A stretch of DNA of 64,000 nt, taken from positions 434,001 through 498,000 of the forward strand of contig CP012158.1 of assembly GCA_001189275.1 (NCBI GenBank). Direction: 5' to 3'. This stretch comes from Pyrobaculum sp. WP30 (GTDB lineage: Archaea > Thermoproteota > Thermoprotei > Thermoproteales > Thermoproteaceae). Positions 49,591 to 63,770 of this stretch are shown piece after piece; position 1 is the first letter of the stretch, and each line of letters starts with the position of its first letter. Under the pieces are notes generated by a model. That model was not told the DNA's origin, made no database searches, and saw only the letters and a program-made list of their open reading frames with translations. The translations under genes and the position numbers were made by a program.

Positions 49591-50916
49591 ATGATTGAGG
49601 ATTTTAACCCTTGGTGGGCGTCTAGGGAGGGGGTTGAGGAGGTGGAGATCTACCGTCGGTATGCGGAGTCTGAGGTTAGGTGGAGGCCTGACCTCATCGA
49701 CAGGATGTCGCTGAGGCCGTTTGCGCTGAACTTTGTCTTTGGGCCTAGGCAGGTGGGCAAATCCACGGCGCTTATACTACTGGTGAAGGAGCTTCTGGAG
49801 AGGGGCGTCCATCCGAAGTCTATCTTCTACCTCTCCTGCGACGCGATTGCGGACTACAGGGAGCTCGCCGAGGTGCTGAGGATGTACCTAAAGGTGAGGA
49901 GGGCGGAGGGCATCTCCTCGTCTTACATACTGCTCGACGAGGTGACGTACCCCAGGGAGTGGTTTAGGGCGGTCAAGAGCATGATAGACATGGGCTATTT
50001 CAGAAACGACGTGTTGGTGCTGTCGGGCTCCCTCTCCATCTCGGCGAGGAGGGAGGCCGAGACCTTCGCCGGCAGGAGGGGCCACGGCAAGAACTTGGTC
50101 ATGTTGCCTCTGCCCTTCGGCAGGTTCGCGGAGCTCCTCGGGCTCAGGCTTCCCCGGGGCGGGCTGGAGCACGTGCTCGGCGGCTACATGCGTTTTCTCC
50201 AGTACGTCTCGCGCCTCGTCGACGCCTTCGAGACGTACCTCGCCGTGGGGGGCTTCCCCAACGCCGTGCGGGAGTACTTCAAATACGGCAAAGTCTCAAC
50301 AGCATACGGCGACTTCGTCTCGGCGGTCCTCAGCGATTTGAACAAGCTCCGGAGAAGCGAGACGTTCTTCAAGCTCACCGTGAGGGCCATAGTGGAAAAG
50401 ACGCCGTCTAGGTTCAGCTACCACACGATCTCCAAATCGTTCGGAGTCGGGACGGTCAAGACCGCCGTAAGCTACGTGGAGCTACTCGAGAAGATGTTCC
50501 TCCTCAAGACGGTATACGCCATGGACGCCGCGGGCGAGGTGCAGCCGAGGAGGGAGAAGAAGTTCTACTTCATCGATCCCTTCATCTACCGCGCCTTCGC
50601 CCGCTGGACCATGGCCAAGCCCCCAGACGAACACGCCCTGGCCGAGGCGGCCGCCGCGACCCACCTAGCCCGGCTGTACGACGTGTTCTACCTCAGACAC
50701 GACGGGGAAATCGACGCGGTGGTGAGAAGCGGCGACGCGCACATAGGCATCGAGGTGAAGTACGGCAGGGCCGAAGGCGCCAGGAGAGTCCTCGGCGTCG
50801 TTAAGCGGATCTACACGCTGAGCAGAGACTCCGCAGACGAGGGAGTCATCCCAACCCCCCTCTTCCTAGCGCTACTGGACATCCCCCAGACCGTGGAGGT
50901 GCCCATACTCGCCTAG
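49591..50916 (+). CDS. AAA-type ATPase with C-terminal DUF4143 (nuclease-like) domain
   Basis: The 441-residue paralogue of 19171-20361 shares the N-terminal NPWW motif, Walker A GPRQVGKST (51-59), Walker B ILLDEVTYPREWF and the sensor string LVLSGSLSISARREAETF. A winged-helix segment (SRFSYHTISKSFGVGTVKTA) and the C-terminal EIDAVVRSGDAHIGIEVKYG come after, giving the D...ExK pattern of nuclease folds. Function is unknown. It stands alone next to mobile-looking DNA and a toxin-antitoxin pair. ATG 49591. Confidence 0.78.
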   Translation: MIEDFNPWWASREGVEEVEIYRRYAESEVRWRPDLIDRMSLRPFALNFVFGPRQVGKSTALILLVKELLERGVHPKSIFYLSCDAIADYRELAEVLRMYLKVRRAEGISSSYILLDEVTYPREWFRAVKSMIDMGYFRNDVLVLSGSLSISARREAETFAGRRGHGKNLVMLPLPFGRFAELLGLRLPRGGLEHVLGGYMRFLQYVSRLVDAFETYLAVGGFPNAVREYFKYGKVSTAYGDFVSAVLSDLNKLRRSETFFKLTVRAIVEKTPSRFSYHTISKSFGVGTVKTAVSYVELLEKMFLLKTVYAMDAAGEVQPRREKKFYFIDPFIYRAFARWTMAKPPDEHALAEAAAATHLARLYDVFYLRHDGEIDAVVRSGDAHIGIEVKYGRAEGARRVLGVVKRIYTLSRDSADEGVIPTPLFLALLDIPQTVEVPILA

Positions 50917-51269: not shown

Positions 51270-51663
51270 TTAGGGGTCTCCCGTGGCCTCCAAGATCTTC
51301 AGGGCGAGGTTCGCCAGCTTTCTGTACTCCCGCCCCGCGAGTATCTGCGAGATCCTCAATATATCTACAGAGGTGTAGCCGTGGACCAGCACGTTTCTAA
51401 ACCCCACCACCGCCCTGTACAGCCTCAAGTCCTCCGGAGAGAAGACGCGCCTCCTCGCCAACGCCGCGCCCGCCTCCGCGTAGCTTTGGGCTGGCTCGCC
51501 CATCAAGGCCGCAGCCCTCTGCACCATGTCTATCAAGACCTGCGCCTGAAGCTGAAGCGCGTGGAGGAACTTCATGATGTCCCTTGTCGTTTAGGTCGAA
51601 GCCCTTAGACACCTCCTGGCCTAACTCTGTGAGTTTAAGCAGGTATTCAGCCAGCGTCTTTAT
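51270..51663 (-). pseudogene. HepT-like HEPN ribonuclease toxin, frameshifted
   Basis: The intact ORF 51270-51575 encodes 101 residues ending with the HEPN catalytic motif RNVLVHGY (R-x4-H-x-Y). Its expected N-terminal helix lies upstream in another frame, IKTLAEYLLKLTELGQEVS then KGFDLNDK (51663 to about 51585). Removing one G from the GGG near 51582-51584 joins them as NDKDIMKFLHAL, which matches the normal HepT helix order. HepT proteins are RNases neutralised by the MntA nucleotidyltransferase, which AMPylates the HepT tyrosine. The shortened ORF could still make a partial domain. It directly follows mntA with overlap. Confidence 0.6.
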
Positions 51664-52058
51664 GCGCGCCGTCGCGCCGCTAAGGCCTCGTGGAGCTTCT
51701 TGGCGTCTATTTCCCAGTCTTGGCACACGTTGAAGAGGCGGAAGACGAGATCCCAGTCCTCCACGTGCAGAGGCACACCTCTCAAAGCCTCCAGAACCAG
51801 TGGGCAGGGCGTATCGGGCCCCACCTCGACTAGGTCTATGTAGTCCTCTCTGACGCCAAGCCACAGCGCCAGCTCGGCCAGCAACTCGGAGTAGGTCTCC
51901 AAATCCGCCCTGGGGATAGCTATGTCTACATCCTCCGCGGGGCCTCCCGCAACGGCCGAGCCGAAGAGGAAGGCAAACTTCACGTAGCGGCCCCAAGGAA
52001 ACTGGCGAAGCTTCTCAAGAGAAACCCTATAGCACCTCCCCACCAAGATCTCCTGCAT
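51660..52058 (-). CDS. MntA-like nucleotidyltransferase antitoxin
   Basis: The 132-residue minimal nucleotidyltransferase has the motif GSAVAGGPAEDVD (Gly33-Ser34, then Asp43 and Asp45). This matches the GSx10DxD signature of MNT proteins that AMPylate HepT toxins. ATG 52058 is used; a longer frame reaches 52118. An AT-rich box (ATTAAAATACTTT) lies about 25 bases upstream. It overlaps the broken hepT frame, the usual operon order of archaeal HEPN-MNT systems. The antitoxin looks intact although the toxin does not. Confidence 0.75.
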   Translation of the reverse strand: MQEILVGRCYRVSLEKLRQFPWGRYVKFAFLFGSAVAGGPAEDVDIAIPRADLETYSELLAELALWLGVREDYIDLVEVGPDTPCPLVLEALRGVPLHVEDWDLVFRLFNVCQDWEIDAKKLHEALAARRRA

Positions 52059-52879
52059 GGCGCAAATTGAGCGCTTATTAAAATACTTTCCCAGGTCCGC
52101 CGTCAACCCCCTCGTCAACTAAGTTCAACCATCTTAAAAAGCGGGACGCCTCCAGAGCTTCAAGTCACCACGGCTAAGGGGGGCAGGCGTGCCACAGCCC
52201 CTCCAACCCCCGCGAAAGAGACGCCCATCCACCCAGCCTCCCCGCCGACTCGAGCAGTCAAGCGCCGAACGCTAAGAAAGAGCACCGTAAACGCGGCAAG
52301 GAGCAGACGTGCAGGCTCGACGCAGTCACGCATCTACGACGTCTTAGGCTGGAGACTATTTCAGGCACCTAGGAGCTCCCTAAGATATCTGCCAGTGACG
52401 GCTCCTGCAGGTCTCTAACAGAGCAACTCTTAACCCCTCTTCGAGGTGCTTGATTACCGCCCTGCCTACCTACCTCTCTAAGGCCTTGCCCTCTATTGAT
52501 TCGAATTTCCGGGCCTCGCTGGGCTCCACGCCCGTTGTCCCAAGTCTCTCCCTCCTCATCCGCGTGCACGTGCCGCCTGCATCCAACGATCAGCTCGGTT
52601 TCTGCTCATTTACTGCTGACCAGTGGATTGCAGATCTTGACCGCGGCCGCCGTGCGGCCCATCGTCATCCTTAGATTTAAGTTATGGCTAAGCCTTGGGT
52701 TGCTTTTGGTTGAGGTAGATGCTTTTCGGTGCTGAGGACCCCCCCGGTGGGTGGGATACGGGACCTCGCCAAGCTGGTGCACCTTGATGCCCCCAATAGG
52801 TCTTCCTCTCATCTGCACCGGAGGAGCCCTTATATAGTCTCGCCAAGGAGGTTCACAACAGGCGCCGGGGCGGGGGCCG
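52059..52879. other. Long gene-poor stretch with a possible small remnant
   Basis: No intact gene. On the minus strand between about 52560 and 52380 protein-like pieces appear in shifting frames: EPSEARKFESIEGKALER and then VIKHLEEGLRVALLETC. They recall a small charged antitoxin-like protein, but stops and a frame change separate them. No RNA gene seen. Confidence 0.35.
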
Positions 52880-53290: not shown

Positions 53291-53610
53291 GAGGGGCCCA
53301 CCGTACTGACATTAAAAACTTATTCCACATCGGCGGTACCCGTAACCCCCTCCACGGCCCGTGGAGCCGATGCGCTGAGGTGTGGATGGCGACGTCCCGT
53401 CTGCTACCGTAGAGACGCCGGCAACACCTTCAAAAGCCTTGAGCCCTCTCTGAAACAGGCGTTGCGGAGTACATACCTGCGGCGCCGACCACCGCCGCGT
53501 GCAGATGCGCCCGCCATCGGCGCAGAAGGCCGAGCTCCTCCTATGCGGCCAGCCGATGAGGACTCCCCCGGAGGGAGTAAGCGTTTTTTACACCAGCCAG
53601 CGGATGAACC
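53291..53610. other. Intergenic stretch at the edge of an AT-richer island
   Basis: Nothing gene-like beyond the promoter of the 53290 gene at its left end. Base composition falls from GC-rich to AT-richer at about 53600, where the next genes begin. Confidence 0.35.
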
Positions 53611-54270
53611 GTGATTAGGATCGATAAAGCAAAGTGGAGAAGTGCATTAATCAGGTCTGCCATAGTAGTGCTGGTGTTTGTAATACTACTTGAAATCACG
53701 TATATGTATATCAACATCAGGGCTAATAGCCTAAGTCGACCCGGGTTCGAATACGTGTTGCTTAATGAGAACGATGCTTATGCGTTGATCATCGATTCTC
53801 TGCCAAACGTTAAGTATAGATTAGATGTGAGACTCGAGGTTACTAGAGGCTCAGCGCTGGTTATTCTTAATAACGGCAGTAAGATCTTGATCGAGGCGGG
53901 TCTTATATCTCCGCCCCCCATTGAGATAACCCTAATTAGGGATTTAAGATACGACGGCTTCATCTCGCGGGGTCTTTGGTCTTATACGTGGCTCAACATT
54001 AATGGAAGCTTGTACAAATCAGTCCCCCCTTCAATACCTGGCAACTTAACGTTTAAGGTCATCGAGGTGTCCTTCGAACTATCCAGAGAGAGACCCGTTG
54101 ACGCAAAACTGATCCACCTAGGCCCGCTTTCAGCCTCAACGCTAGGTAATGCCACATATTTGGTAGAAGTGCTCAGCGGCGCGGCCGGCCCAACCCCAGC
54201 CTTGATAGTGGTCGGCCTATCTGGTGGAACCATTATCAGACTGTCGTGGTACTGGGTGGTTGTGGCATGA
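53611..54270 (+). CDS. Single-pass membrane protein, unknown, in AT-richer island
   Basis: The 219-residue protein starts with GTG 53611. It has one N-terminal membrane helix (about residues 14-34, AIVVLVFVILLEITYMYI), then an extracytoplasmic domain rich in beta strands with several N-x-S/T sites, and a hydrophobic C-terminal end (IIRLSWYWVVVA). It has more Ile, Asn and Ser than neighbours and AT-richer codons. I do not recognise the family. Its stop overlaps the next ATG (ATGA), so it is the first gene of a three-gene operon with a membrane protein and a winged-helix protein. Confidence 0.65.
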   Translation: MIRIDKAKWRSALIRSAIVVLVFVILLEITYMYINIRANSLSRPGFEYVLLNENDAYALIIDSLPNVKYRLDVRLEVTRGSALVILNNGSKILIEAGLISPPPIEITLIRDLRYDGFISRGLWSYTWLNINGSLYKSVPPSIPGNLTFKVIEVSFELSRERPVDAKLIHLGPLSASTLGNATYLVEVLSGAAGPTPALIVVGLSGGTIIRLSWYWVVVA

Positions 54271-54923
54271 TGAGCGACGTGGCTGAGAAGGTGCTAAGGC
54301 TCCGGGACGCGTTAGAGACCGTGGAGAGCATCAACAACCAGCTTGATGAACTGCGCAAGATCTTCATAGTGGTGCTAACCGTGGCCGTAGCGACGCTGGG
54401 GATCGCCAGCATCTTGTGGTACATGTGGGGGACCACATATCCTCAATTGTACAACATGTGGGTGTTGGTGTACCTCGTGTTGTTCTTCTTTCCGCTGGCG
54501 TATGCGGCGCGCAGGTTGGACAAGGCCGCCGAGGTCAAGGGGTTTTACCAAGATTGGGGCGAGAAGCTTAAGGAGGGGGAGCTGGGAGTATTGGCTATAC
54601 TGGAGAGTCTTGACTGGGACTACGTAGAGTATAGAGTCAACAGGGCTAAGACGCTCTACCCAATCCTGCTCATCATAGACGAGGCTCTGTGGATAGCGTT
54701 CCTGCTGATCTTCGTAGCGCCTGCCTACGGGTTTCTCAACAACCTCCTATTTCACACAATAGACACCCCGGTGCTGGTTGGTTCAGTGGTTTTGGCGGTG
54801 GCCATAGCCCTAGCCATAACCTGGGGCGAGGTAGTCGACAAATTCAAGACCCTGTGGAGCCTCGACTCGTTGCTATGGGAGGTTAGGTGGCTCTACCATG
54901 AGTACAGAAAACTTCAAACCTAA
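54267..54923 (+). CDS. Four-helix membrane protein with coiled N-terminus, unknown
   Basis: The 218-residue protein has an N-terminal charged, coiled-coil-like helix (RLRDALETVESINNQLDELR). Two membrane helices follow (about 34-56 and 70-90), then a cytoplasmic middle segment and two further helices (about 137-157 and 170-190). No enzyme motif is seen. It starts in the ATGA overlap with the previous gene and overlaps the winged-helix gene by 26 bases. Tight overlaps suggest the three products work together. The family is unknown to me. Confidence 0.65.
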   Translation: MMSDVAEKVLRLRDALETVESINNQLDELRKIFIVVLTVAVATLGIASILWYMWGTTYPQLYNMWVLVYLVLFFFPLAYAARRLDKAAEVKGFYQDWGEKLKEGELGVLAILESLDWDYVEYRVNRAKTLYPILLIIDEALWIAFLLIFVAPAYGFLNNLLFHTIDTPVLVGSVVLAVAIALAITWGEVVDKFKTLWSLDSLLWEVRWLYHEYRKLQT

Positions 54924-55194
54924 CCTCTACGTACTGGCGAGGATAATCAAAGCCCTGATCGACAACGGAGCCATGAAGAGAACCAACCTGGCCCAGGCCT
55001 CGGGGCTGTCCTACGACAAGCTCCAGAAGTACCTAAACTGGATGATCGAAAAAGGCCTGATCACGGTAGACGGCGACGGCTACGTCAGCCTAACCAGGGA
55101 AGGGGCAAAGACCTACGACGAGCTAGTCCAGTGGATAATAAAATACGTCGGAAGCCTGAGATTGGACAGACGCTGGCGCCCACGCCCCACCTAA
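54898..55194 (+). CDS. Winged-helix DNA-binding protein
   Basis: The 98-residue protein is a compact winged-helix domain of the archaeal HTH_45/PF14947 style: RTNLAQASGLSYDKLQKYLN forms the helix-turn-helix, then GLITVDGDGYVSLT the wing. A short basic tail RLDRRWRPRP follows. Such proteins often regulate their own operon. It is the third gene of the island operon, overlapping the membrane gene by 26 bases. Confidence 0.75.
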   Translation: MSTENFKPNLYVLARIIKALIDNGAMKRTNLAQASGLSYDKLQKYLNWMIEKGLITVDGDGYVSLTREGAKTYDELVQWIIKYVGSLRLDRRWRPRPT

Positions 55195-55467
55195 CCCATC
55201 AACCCCAACCGCGCCGAGCCCCTTAAAGTGTAAGCGCGCGGCAAGCGGGGATCATACGGCGAGTTTCAAGATACGTGCGGGTTTAGGACAGCCGATAAAG
55301 AGGCACCCGCAACCACTGTCCACATCACGGCTGTAGTGTATTAGCATGAGCTTGTGTCGCTAATCATATCCCACAGTACATCCACCTAAATGAAGCGGTG
55401 TTGATTAATGATGTACGTCTCGACATCCTCAGGCTTATCCCCCTCGTTTTATAGATGCTCTTATGCA

Positions 55468-56937
55468 CTATCTAATGGGTTCCAGCAAGCCAGAGTCGAA
55501 CAATTCGCTTAAAGTCATCTTGTGCTTCTTAAGCGCCTCTTCAGCCTCCTTCCCAAGCCGGTAAGCCTTCGTTTCCCCGCCTTCGAGCTCTAGAACAACG
55601 ACCTCATTCACGCTTTTGGCATAGTCGAGAGGCACGGTGGAGTGTGTGATCAGTATTACGAAGGCGTCGCGGCTCCTAAACTCGTCCATCAAGAACTGCT
55701 GAAGCTCAGGGTGTAAACTATTTTCAAACTCATCAATAACGATAACGCCAGCTCTGCTGAGAAGCGACTCAATGATTAGGGTCTTAAGGACGCCGCTAGG
55801 TATGGAGGCCGGAGTCAACGTAGTGCCGTCAGCGACGACCTTCAAGAAAACCCTACCGTCCTCAGTAACGCTGAAACCTAGCCTTAGATCATTAGCTCCG
55901 ACGAACGCGTACCTCAACGCCTCCACAAGGGACTCGGAAACGCTACCCTCGGCAATTGTGTAGAGAAACGGTACAAAATTAGAGACATCCGGCGACAACC
56001 TATTCTGTTTAGTAAGGGGCTGGGGGCTTCTAATCGCCTTCCAATCAATATCCTTAATGACTGTGATGCTGTTTATAAATTTGCGCATCTCATTAATAGC
56101 TTCTGACAGATACCTTTCAATATAGTCTATAATGTATTCTGAGAAATAAATTATTATTTTTATATTGGTTACCTCCTCAACAGTTATTTGTTCTTGGATT
56201 GTTTTTACTAAGTGAGCCATATCTTTTCTAGTGGTGACAAACATAAGACGGTGTACGCCCTTTGTGATGAGGGGCATAGCTTCTTGGATCGCCCTAAGCT
56301 TAACACTCAGCCTTAATGAGTCAGATTTAAGTGTAATCCTGGGTGTTTCGCTTGTAAATAATTTTTTGAAGGCTTGCACAATTTCTTCGAAAGCTTCCTT
56401 ACTTATGGTGGCTGTCAATTCCCCCTTATCAGTATCAATGCTTGCGTCTAAGCCGTTACCTTGAGCCCTAAGGCTCTCTTTCAAAATTTGGAAACGCCCT
56501 CCCTTACCTGTAATGTATATTTCATAAAAGATTTTAGTAGGCGCTTTACATGTATCTATTATTACAGAGAGTGATGGCTTTCTATCTTTATATTCTAGTT
56601 TTAATATTGTACTGCATGATTTCTCTGTGCATTCTTCTGTATTTTTATATTCAAGTTCCAGACCAAGTATAATTGGGAGGTTCTCATCGTGTTTCCATAC
56701 TACTTTGTCGTAACCCCACCACTTTAGGAATGGGTTTGTGGTCCTTCCCATAGCCCACTCCACAGTGCTCGTCAACAGCTCGAAGGCTTCCGTTAAGGCT
56801 GTTTTACCTGAGCCGTTGGTCCCCACGACCATTGTTAGTCTCGTTGGGAATTCAAGCGTCACGTCTCTTAACGACTTGAAGTTCTTGACCCAGAACTTCT
56901 TCAGCTCCACGCACTCGTTGACGACCTTTAGATCCAC
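55468..56937 (-). CDS. OLD/RecF-like AAA ATPase
   Basis: The 489-residue ATPase belongs to the ABC/RecF-like AAA_15/AAA_21 group. It has Walker A VGTNGSGKTAL (about 33-43), a long divergent middle region (about 150-330), a signature-like stretch in TLTPASIPSGVLKTLIIESL, Walker B VIVIDEFENSLHP and a switch ILITHSTVPL. No C-terminal TOPRIM nuclease is visible, so it differs from full OLD proteins. It lies in the AT-richer island, convergent to the winged-helix operon. Related ATPases serve in defence or repair, but function here is unknown. Confidence 0.78.
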   Translation of the reverse strand: MDLKVVNECVELKKFWVKNFKSLRDVTLEFPTRLTMVVGTNGSGKTALTEAFELLTSTVEWAMGRTTNPFLKWWGYDKVVWKHDENLPIILGLELEYKNTEECTEKSCSTILKLEYKDRKPSLSVIIDTCKAPTKIFYEIYITGKGGRFQILKESLRAQGNGLDASIDTDKGELTATISKEAFEEIVQAFKKLFTSETPRITLKSDSLRLSVKLRAIQEAMPLITKGVHRLMFVTTRKDMAHLVKTIQEQITVEEVTNIKIIIYFSEYIIDYIERYLSEAINEMRKFINSITVIKDIDWKAIRSPQPLTKQNRLSPDVSNFVPFLYTIAEGSVSESLVEALRYAFVGANDLRLGFSVTEDGRVFLKVVADGTTLTPASIPSGVLKTLIIESLLSRAGVIVIDEFENSLHPELQQFLMDEFRSRDAFVILITHSTVPLDYAKSVNEVVVLELEGGETKAYRLGKEAEEALKKHKMTLSELFDSGLLEPIR

Positions 56938-57353: not shown

Positions 57354-57635
57354 TCATCTGCTCCTCTTGACCTCCTCGACGTAGGGCCGCGCCGGCTCGG
57401 CGTACATCCCAGCTACCTCCGGCGGCTTGCCTCCGACTTCCACGTAGGTGGCCTGCGCGGCCGAGGCCGCCGCGCAGTATATGCCCTCGCCCGTCGAGTC
57501 GTCCACGAGGCCCGCCGCCTCTATGGAGACCGCCACGCGGCCCGGCGAGAGGTCGACGTCTACGATGCCCAGGATTACGCCGAGGAGGAGCCACTTCTCG
57601 AAATAGGGGAGCGACCAGAGCCTGAGGGCCCGCAT
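57354..57635 (-). pseudogene. Chimeric ORF: ClC start fused to geranylgeranyl-reductase-like fragment
   Basis: The first 25 residues ([19 protein letters not shown] and on) are identical to the start of the ClC protein at 60680-62038 and come with its promoter. At 57562 the sequence switches to a different protein containing AAGLVDDSTGEGIYCAAAS, the AGLVxxxTGEGI motif of FAD-dependent geranylgeranyl reductases. The fragment ends after about 70 residues. Neither parent is complete, so no known activity is expected. Confidence 0.65.
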
Positions 57636-57801
57636 GGGCCCGTCGCCGGCAACCGGTTTTTAAGCCTTTCTGCGGCTTAGCCTTTGGTGAACCCCAGCAC
57701 GTCGGCGAAGTTGGCCATATCCAGCAGGCCGTGTCCGCTGAAGCTTATCAGCACCACCTTCCTCTCGCCGGTCCTCTTGGCCTCGTCTGCCACCTCCTTG
57801 A
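57562..57801. repeat. 240-bp direct repeat, copy 1 (of the ClC-trpB junction)
   Basis: This block matches 61965-62204 at 239 of 240 positions (T at 57788 against C at 62191), in the same orientation, 4403 bases apart. It carries the first part of the ClC gene, its promoter, the intergenic gap and the last 39 codons of trpB. Flanking sequences are unrelated. Confidence 0.9.
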
Positions 57802-58036
57802 TCCCCTCCGCGGCCTTGGCGAGCTCCCTGACAAGCCTAATGAGGGAGTGCATACGGGGGTAGGCACCTGTCTTGAGGAGGAGCTTGTACTTCAACATAA
57901 GCTGGCAGTACTGCTCCACGCCGAACGCCGCTAAGTCGTATTCGCCCTCGGCGTACAGCCGCTCCGCGTTCCTCAGAAACGCCTCAGCCCTCAGCCGGAG
58001 GAGCTCCGCCTCCTCGAAGCTCACGCATGGAAGCAA
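57677..58036 (-). pseudogene. Chimeric ORF: HEPN domain fused to TrpB C-terminus
   Basis: The 119-residue ORF starts as a HEPN-domain protein ([39 protein letters not shown] and [13 protein letters not shown]). After about residue 80 it changes, at 57801, into the exact C-terminal 39 residues of TrpB (ending [19 protein letters not shown]). The HEPN part is shorter than the usual 120-130 residues, and no nucleotidyltransferase partner lies beside it. Whether the fusion folds is unknown. It was created by the 240-bp duplication. Confidence 0.7.
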
Positions 58037-60503: not shown

Positions 60504-61964
60504 CGTGGACATCTCCATCGCCGTCATCGCGGCCGAAACGGCGGGCTTAATTGTGTCCGGTCTCGGCGGGATCGGCCCTCATGCACGCCCCCATCCTGCG
60601 GCGCGATTGCCGAGGCCGGCGTCCCCGACGCGCGGACGCGATCCAGGCGGTCGGGCCTACTGCGCCGGCCGGCTCGGCCTCACCCGCCGGCGTGAGCCGG
60701 CGAGTCCCTCCTGGTGGGGACTTGAGATCGGTAGATGGAATCGTTTCCCGTGACTATGTAGGACACGGCCACGGCGATCACAGCAGCCGGGAGTAGTTGA
60801 AAGCTTCCCGTCATCTCGACGACCATTACGGTCACAGATAGGGGGGCCTTGGCGGCTCCGCCGAACAGAGCGGCCATCCCGACGATCACGAAGGGGGCTA
60901 TTGACGGCGCCAGCTGGGGGAAGGCCAAGTGGAACAGCAACCCAAGACCCCCTCCCACGAAGGCCCCTATGAACAGACCCGGGGCGAACACGCCGCCGCT
61001 TCCTCCGGAGCCCACGGTCAGCCCAGTGGCCACTATCTTGAGGAAGGGCAACAGGGCGAGCAGATAGACCGCGGGCAGAGCCGACGGGAAGGAGTCGAGT
61101 CTCCCATATTCGAGGAGGCTTATCCAGCCGTAGCCTACGCCCATAACCTCGGGGGCCAGCAACGCTATCGCACCGGTCAAGAGCCCGCCCAACGCAGGCT
61201 TGAGGTAGGGAGGCACGCGGAGCCTCTTGAAGGCGTTATGTATGCCGTAGAACGCCCTTATGTAGAGCAGGCCCACCAGCCCCGCCGCGGCTCCCAGCAC
61301 GGCGTAGAGGGGGAGGGCCGCCGGGTTGAACGCCTCGGTGTAGTTGCCGAATATGGGGGCGAAGCCCACGACCGAGCCGAATATGGAGTAGCCGACCGCG
61401 GACGCCACGAGCGCGGGGTAGATCACCTCGACCTCCATGTCCCTCCTGTAGAGTATCTCGGCCGCCAGCAACGCTCCCCCTAGAGGGGCCTTGAATATAG
61501 CCCCTATCCCGGCGCCTATGCCAACGGCTACGGCGATCCGCCTATCCTCGGGAGAGAGGCCCAGGAGGTCGGCCACCATGGACCCCAGGCTCGCCGACAG
61601 TTGCGCTATCGGTCCCTCGCGCCCCGCACTTCCGCCGCTCCCTATGGTGACGGCAGAGGCCAACAGCTTTATGGGCGCAACCCTCCACCTAATCCTTCCC
61701 TGCCTGTAGTGGTAGGCGGCGATAGCGGCGTCGGTGCCGTGCCCCTCGGCCTCAGGCGCCAGGTAGTACACCAGAAGCCCCGCGATGGCTCCGCCCGCCG
61801 CCGTGATTAGAGGGATCAGATAATATCTGTCCGCGCTGAATTGATACTCCAAGGTCCCTCCCTCGCCGAGAGGCCTGGGCATCGAGAGGCCCGCCAGCCT
61901 CTCCAGGAAGAGGTATTCGGCCCCCCTCAGAGCGAAGTAGAAAGCCAGCGCCGAGAGGCCGGCC

Positions 61965-63770
<1,806 letters not shown>

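Follow-up and report, generated by a model that had tools for sequence, protein, structure and literature searches.

The window analysed here is a 64,000-nucleotide stretch of Pyrobaculum sp. WP30 (contig CP012158.1; G000:C1:434001-498000 in the numbering used below), taken from a genome that consists of a single contig of 1,993,257 bp. It carries three overlapping genes, termed A, B and C, behind a palindrome and a TATA-like element, and a fourth gene, D, on the opposite strand (Table 1). The trio is probably a membrane-coupled transcription switch, in which C acts at the palindrome and B controls C. Sampled genomes are labelled G### and the loci read in them L###; g8 denotes a genus, and f4, f14 and f35 denote families.

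Table 1. Features of the A-B-C operon and the adjoining gene D, with positions in the window.
Feature	Position	Strand	Description
17-bp palindrome ACTC-N9-GAGT	53562-53578	.	predicted to be bound by C; conserved before the operon in the phylum sample
TATA-like element	53584-53590	+	5 bp after the operator, 27 nt before the start of A; direct reading
gene A	53611-54270	+	219 aa; N-terminal transmembrane (TM) helix and predicted extracytoplasmic beta-sandwich
gene B	54267-54923	+	218 aa; four long helices (4 TM), conserved cytoplasmic segments; no Pfam/NCBIfam family
gene C	54898-55194	+	98 aa; HTH_45-type winged helix, predicted regulator
gene D	55468-56937	-	489 aa; orphan AriA/HEC-01A/MAD3-like ATPase; neighbour outside the A-B-C module

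In the list of open reading frames (ORFs) gene B starts at 54246, and its probable start is 54267, where ATGA overlaps the stop codon of A; genes A and B then overlap by 4 nt, and B and C by 26 nt. A single N-terminal TM helix was predicted for A, and its predicted beta-sandwich comes from a model of low confidence (predicted local distance difference test score, pLDDT, 65.7), which as a Foldseek query gave no match at an expectation value (E) ≤ 0.001. The model of B (pLDDT 88.5, predicted template modelling score 0.79) consists of four long helices and two short cytoplasmic ones. Mean conservation in B is 0.49-0.58 in the N-helix, the short helices, the start of helix 3 and the C-helix, and 0.35-0.41 in the membrane parts; judged from topology, the most conserved parts would be the cytoplasmic segments. 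Gene C matches HTH_45 at E 6.6e-11, as do all 26 aligned C members, among which 11 Pfam families were found; no TM segment was predicted in the C ORFs, the TM segments sitting in A and B. Ratios of nonsynonymous to synonymous substitution rates (dN/dS), computed against Caldivirga, are 0.41 for A, 0.23 for B and 0.09 for C; by this measure all three genes are under purifying selection, and C is far more conserved than A and B.

Distribution was scored in a phylum sample of 397 genomes from 162 genera and an order sample of 45 genomes, with C taken as present at E ≤ 1e-18, B scored with alignments, and A located by position and a 16-row alignment. B occurs in 12 of the 45 genomes of the order (its own genome, 0 of 18 others of its family, and the rest in two genera of another family), and in 32 of the 397 phylum genomes (8 of 162 genera). 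C was found in 40 of the 397, including all 32 with B, and the two genes are adjacent in 31 of those; in the 32nd, both lie at contig ends. B and C overlap by 26, 29, 32, 35 or 38 nt in 24/24 loci measured, and A and B by 4 nt in 13/14, with starts picked by the analyst where several were possible. A single-sequence search with A gave matches in only 3 of the 45 genomes of the order, so A evolves fast. The conserved pairing and overlaps mark A-B-C as an old, fixed operon. The eight genomes with C only have weaker C matches (E 1e-19 to 1e-26); six of them (G184, G201, G326, G346, G093, G249) were read, together with a second solo copy in G072, leaving out G102 and G173, and some of the C copies in C-only genomes adjoin other membrane proteins. 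As a separate observation, two distant genomes have a C-like winged helix behind a helical membrane protein other than B (L136:3396-4025 and L137:2453-3157). Profile comparison gave a probability of 1.8% for a shared origin of B and the membrane protein that adjoins the C-like gene in G093 and G249, and this relation was rejected; the L136 and L137 pairs, without detectable homology to B, suggest that pairs of a membrane protein and a winged-helix protein arose more than once.

The palindrome was first recognised by side-by-side reading of upstream sequences, and in most relatives its end lies 5 bp from a TTATAT-like sequence. With the TATA-like element 27 nt before the start of A, the operon mRNA is probably leaderless. 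The operator core was scored as the 8 letters of ACTC-N9-GAGT within 200 bp upstream, with dinucleotide shuffles as control. At least 7 of 8 letters are present in 27/31 promoters and all 8 in 18/31, against shuffle means of 1.7 (maximum 7) and 0.06 (maximum 2), respectively. Among other ORFs in the same loci, 3/344 have an 8/8 core; all three lie in G270 next to an operon copy, and in two cases the gene that follows encodes an ABC ATPase.

To avoid circularity, matrices were trained on one group of loci and tested on the other, with 15 training sites from outside Thermoproteales. With this out-of-order matrix, the operon site has the highest score among about 64,000 window positions (19.8; next 13.6), and it ranks first in 10/11 Thermoproteales loci. 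With the reverse matrix, it ranks first in 12/20 other loci; in six of the remainder (L108, L109, L112, L117, L118, L119), unlike in L124 and L127, higher-ranked sites lie in the same locus, mostly before exporter genes. Across 501,226 bases (34 loci), 35 matrix matches were found, 25 at operon or solo-C promoters and 10 elsewhere in the same loci, versus 0 in 3 mononucleotide shuffles. The solo C copy in L132 keeps an adjoining operator. An earlier reading of the letters and their ORFs, here called the sequence-only reading, had described three overlapping genes encoding a single-pass protein, a four-helix protein with a coiled N-terminus and a winged helix, and had proposed membrane proteins with their own regulator; the description was confirmed, coordinates and overlaps included, the N-terminus of B being a long helix, and the proposal is supported and sharpened by the presence of C in every B genome and by the conserved palindrome at the operon promoter.

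Further sites were found before other genes of the same loci, some target genes being assigned by distance alone. They precede ABC ATPases in L108, L109, L114, L117 and L118 (weaker sites in L112 and L119), PAP2, DUF996 and MscS genes in L108 (the MscS start lying ~260 nt from its site), and the gene for a PAP2-VTT protein in L126; in L113, L115, L116 and L122, the site precedes, or is shared with, a divergent gene for a large surface protein, with PQQ_2 shown for L116 only. Genome-wide, the combined operator and TATA pattern has 1 match in G000, at the A-B-C operon, and 51 matches in the 32 B genomes, 31 of them at B/C loci; at the operon promoter itself it is present in 20 of the 32. There is no genome-wide excess away from B/C loci, so any regulon would be local. 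A second palindrome family, ACTCAC-N5-GTGAGT, with a TATA-like element at the same spacing, was observed in genomes with and without the operon (G202:C23:101967; G253 C8:58551, C22:207500 and C44:239210; single sites in G002, G003, G004 and G005). It is probably the site of a different regulator, and adds to the background of pattern matches.

Comparison with Caldivirga sp. MU80 indicates that the A-B-C unit entered this Pyrobaculum-like genome horizontally. DNA similarity covers window positions 53562-55194 (74% over 1,677 columns); its edges coincide with the palindrome's first base and with the stop codon of C, and nothing else in the window from 53.0 to 57.5 kb matched that strain. A tree of B+C from 24 loci places the window with Caldivirga sp. 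MU80 (99/99), inside the Thermoproteales branch. An empty-site check in G028 found, near its CLC channel gene, that channel gene as the only window ORF. As a side observation, an AAA_14/DUF4143 ATPase gene lies upstream of the trio at 49591-50916, and a broken relative of it (62% and 42% identity in pieces) lies directly downstream of the trio in Caldivirga sp. MU80 (L075:222-729).

Elsewhere, relatives of the trio occupy stable housekeeping sites. In g8, the trio or its remains stand between the NAC and ribosomal protein L10e genes in 8/12 sampled genomes (Pfam identities for L077), several of which are drafts with frameshifts, the ribosomal gene included. At this position in G019, a single contig, C is intact, A is gone and only the last part of B is left (L083:7055-7499), and no operator match was found in L083. 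G016 has a second trio copy beside what we take to be a triosephosphate isomerase-like gene, with a copy at the same site in G025, and in f35 the trio follows a phosphoribosyltransferase gene; f14 and f35 presumably resemble Bathyarchaeia. Neither B nor D has relatives in phages, plasmids or IMG/VR contigs, and a virus or plasmid origin was rejected on that ground. By gene content, these neighbourhoods do not form a defence-island pattern. The sequence-only reading had suggested a defence or conflict module; for A-B-C this is not supported, given the stable housekeeping sites, the lack of B relatives in phage, plasmid and viral-contig collections, and the extra operators at membrane and exporter genes. 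It had also held that isolated housekeeping homologues without conserved pairing would count against its proposal: housekeeping locations were found, but the pairing was not lost.

The best reading of A-B-C is a split membrane sensor/transcription-factor system that would work like LytTR regulatory systems (LRS) or HAAS-PadR dyads and be built from unrelated proteins. C would bind ACTC-N9-GAGT directly upstream of the TFB recognition element (BRE) and TATA element of its own operon and, in relatives, also of nearby exporter and envelope genes. B, translationally coupled to C, would hold or control C through its conserved cytoplasmic segments, and A, where present, would contribute an outer-face domain; a membrane or surface change felt by A/B would then alter the access of C to DNA and adjust operon expression. 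We infer both the binding of C to the operator and that of B to C. Control of C by B is proposed because B has a fixed coupling to a DNA-binding protein and conserved cytoplasmic segments, and the operator lies at the BRE/TATA edge. The response would probably be to envelope stress, as the presumed signal. Its sign could go either way, since a site just upstream of the BRE fits an activator, and occlusion fits a repressor. Archaeal sensing of membrane damage or change is poorly known, and the system would tie two protein families without a Pfam/NCBIfam match to a defined regulator, an exact predicted 17-bp site and named target genes. A search of the open-access PMC literature by title or abstract start, with subscription papers and supplements outside its scope, returned no description of the A-B-C operon.

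Several results weigh against this interpretation. Four promoters (L109, L110, L112, L127) score below 7/8 in the 200-bp test, although in L110 the matrix places a strong site 200 bp upstream of the ORF, and two of the 27 passing promoters have the core at odd distances (145 nt in L082, 1 nt in L123), where the matches may have arisen by chance. Away from B/C loci, 20 residual pattern matches in the 32 B genomes (0.63 each) compare with 14 in 20 genomes without B (0.70), by hand count. The sole match in G000 is the operon itself, and the envelope-stress proposal therefore draws on relatives. Many f14 loci have no A upstream of B. Despite a good model, the fold of B gave no Foldseek match at E ≤ 0.001, and VIA-align gave a best Z of 6.0 with generic helical rows, TolQ/ExbB-like rows being weak, so the role of B is unsupported by any known fold. 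The link between C and the palindrome is a prediction, and another regulator could own the site.

Two rival explanations appear unlikely, to a similar degree. In the first, C would repress an A-B complex that has an enzymatic, transport or structural job of its own, with no signal from B to C, and the overlap would serve co-expression only. Autoregulated operons of this sort are common, and binding of B to C is a prediction; against this, C is much more conserved than A and B by dN/dS, the same kind of site precedes other, unrelated membrane genes, and neither A nor B matched a known enzyme or transporter family. In the second, B, with A, would be a membrane toxin, and C a DNA-binding antitoxin that acts on the palindrome to control its own operon. 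Such an arrangement would fit a small DNA-binding protein, a promoter palindrome, overlapping genes, the absence of B from any genome without C, the solo C copies (L132, L083) and the toxin-antitoxin-type neighbours in the window. It sits poorly with the stable g8 position beside ribosomal and NAC genes, the operators at ABC exporter, PAP2 and surface-protein genes, and the lack of phage or plasmid relatives among those searched; membrane toxins, moreover, do not typically come with a protein like A or with long conserved cytoplasmic helices like those of B.

Still less probable is a chromosome-membrane tether, in which an Sso10a-like C would anchor DNA through B and the palindrome would be only C's own control site. 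The Sso10a chromatin proteins (PMC4941522) are the nearest curated family of C, all 26 C members match NCBIfam Sso10a_fam at E ≤ 0.001, and C is basic (net charge +3 to +13). The window C, however, reaches 43.2 bits, below the curated 60-bit cut-off, and C is coupled to a membrane protein and presumably to a specific operator; the rarity of the palindrome and TATA pattern (1 in G000) would leave a site-specific tether with one or few anchor points, and the presence in 32/397 genomes is patchy. A defence or conflict system, in which an A/B membrane effector would be silenced by C and act with the OLD-like ATPase D, can draw on the D, HEPN and HepT/MNT-type genes in the neighbourhood and on the patchy, here horizontally acquired, trio, and is about as improbable as the tether, given that D and the trio are not together elsewhere in the loci read, that trio relatives have housekeeping surroundings, and that PADLOC models gave nothing better than E 0.039 for A and B, and for C only generic winged helix-turn-helix (wHTH) matches.

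For a membrane-coupled switch, known systems offer parallels. In the parts of PMC6193735 used here, LRS (HdrRM, BrsRM) are described as a co-transcribed DNA-binding regulator and membrane inhibitor with an autoregulated promoter, repeats immediately upstream of it and frequent ABC transporter linkage, and as reported in some archaea too. A-B-C resembles them in pairing a regulator with a membrane partner, in the repeat directly at the operon promoter and in the ABC linkage; it differs in having an HTH_45 winged helix where LRS have LytTR (absent from the 11 Pfam families found in the 26 C members), one inverted repeat at the position of the LRS direct repeats, a membrane gene that precedes the regulator, and a third protein, A, on the surface. 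The HAAS-PadR dyad, linked to PSP/Lia envelope-stress modules, has been proposed to transduce membrane signals (PMC11237479, in the portion drawn on here), and resembles A-B-C in that a free-standing wHTH invariably accompanies a helical protein linked to the membrane; B, by contrast, has four TM helices and is not assigned to the HAAS family. No HAAS match was found in 27 B members at E ≤ 0.1, a whole-genome HAAS_TM search being silent even in its controls; B may be remotely related to HAAS in fold. PadR matched none of the 26 C members at E ≤ 0.01. Because C belongs to neither regulator family by these tests, and no HAAS domain was detected in B, LRS and HAAS-PadR are best taken as functional parallels, not as families to which A-B-C belongs. 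The archaeal one-component TM regulators, ArnR/ArnR1 among them, are likewise membrane-linked helix-turn-helix regulators of surface structures, and, in the sections of PMC6396743 and PMC10269533 considered, have DNA-binding and membrane parts in one polypeptide, whereas in A-B-C these are encoded by separate overlapping genes. A broader claim, which we advance tentatively and with clearly less confidence than the switch itself, is that A-B-C stands for a class of its own in archaeal envelope-stress signalling, spread across Thermoproteota, in which an outer-face sensor and a four-helix transducer would seize or release a winged-helix factor at a palindrome a constant 5 bp upstream of TATA, in several lineages switching exporters, lipid-phosphatase/VTT-type membrane proteins and surface proteins, as a convergent counterpart of bacterial LRS and HAAS-PadR.

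Gene D encodes an AAA_21/AAA_15 ATPase (AAA_21 E 7.8e-18), which among defence models matched HEC-01A (E 1.5e-25), AriA (E 1.8e-19), mad3 (E 1.7e-17) and also AbiLi. At E ≤ 1e-10, 23 of 300 phylum genomes, its own included, have a relative of D, with the best in f4. In four of six regions of such relatives read, a small gene, judged TOPRIM-like by eye, lies directly downstream (L152, L153, L155 and, marginally, L154), three of the four having weak mad4, HEC-01B or RloB matches; in the other two regions, the ATPase is truncated. As an aside, the L152-L155 pairs represent a Thermoproteota branch of two-gene ATPase systems that is poorly covered by model libraries. D resembles the ATPase of HEC-01, of MADS mad3-mad4 and of AriA-AriB, but is without a TOPRIM-like or nuclease partner, and tblastn found no remnant of a TOPRIM partner in the 273 nt between D and C. 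From these matches, D is best read as an orphan ATPase left from a two-gene defence system; it may be inactive or may work with a different partner. Relatives of D are found in places that lack the trio, and relatives of the trio where D is absent; with the two ranges independent, the trio and D as one defence unit was rejected.

The sequence-only reading had placed all four genes in one AT-rich island with deviant codon use. Their GC content is indeed lower (0.41-0.54 vs 0.58 for the window), and D (0.44) and A (0.47), whose codon use is also unusual, are the two lowest-GC among 50 window ORFs of at least 150 aa. In third-position GC and codon scores, however, B and C are unremarkable (ranks 22 to 28 of 50), so composition does not unite the four genes into one island. 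An ATPase without TOPRIM was correctly recognised, and its defence-like character holds, while the link to the trio does not: A-B-C and D are two unrelated things, and what looked like one mixed AT-rich patch is a mobile regulatory unit next to a defence orphan that has nothing to do with it.

The toxin-antitoxin neighbours that had been pointed out are real. At 51270-52118 (-), a HepT-like gene (E 5.4e-14) adjoins a gene with a weak nucleotidyltransferase (Polbeta) match; from these domain matches, the two are likely to be a HEPN/MNT toxin-antitoxin pair. A stand-alone HEPN-domain gene (E 3.3e-16) at 57677-58036 (-) adjoins a duplicated segment. The latter is a 245-nt direct repeat of 99% identity (57557-57801 and 61960-62204), in which the 5' end of the CLC channel gene (60680-62038, -) has been copied beside the HEPN gene, creating a short ORF at 57354-57635.

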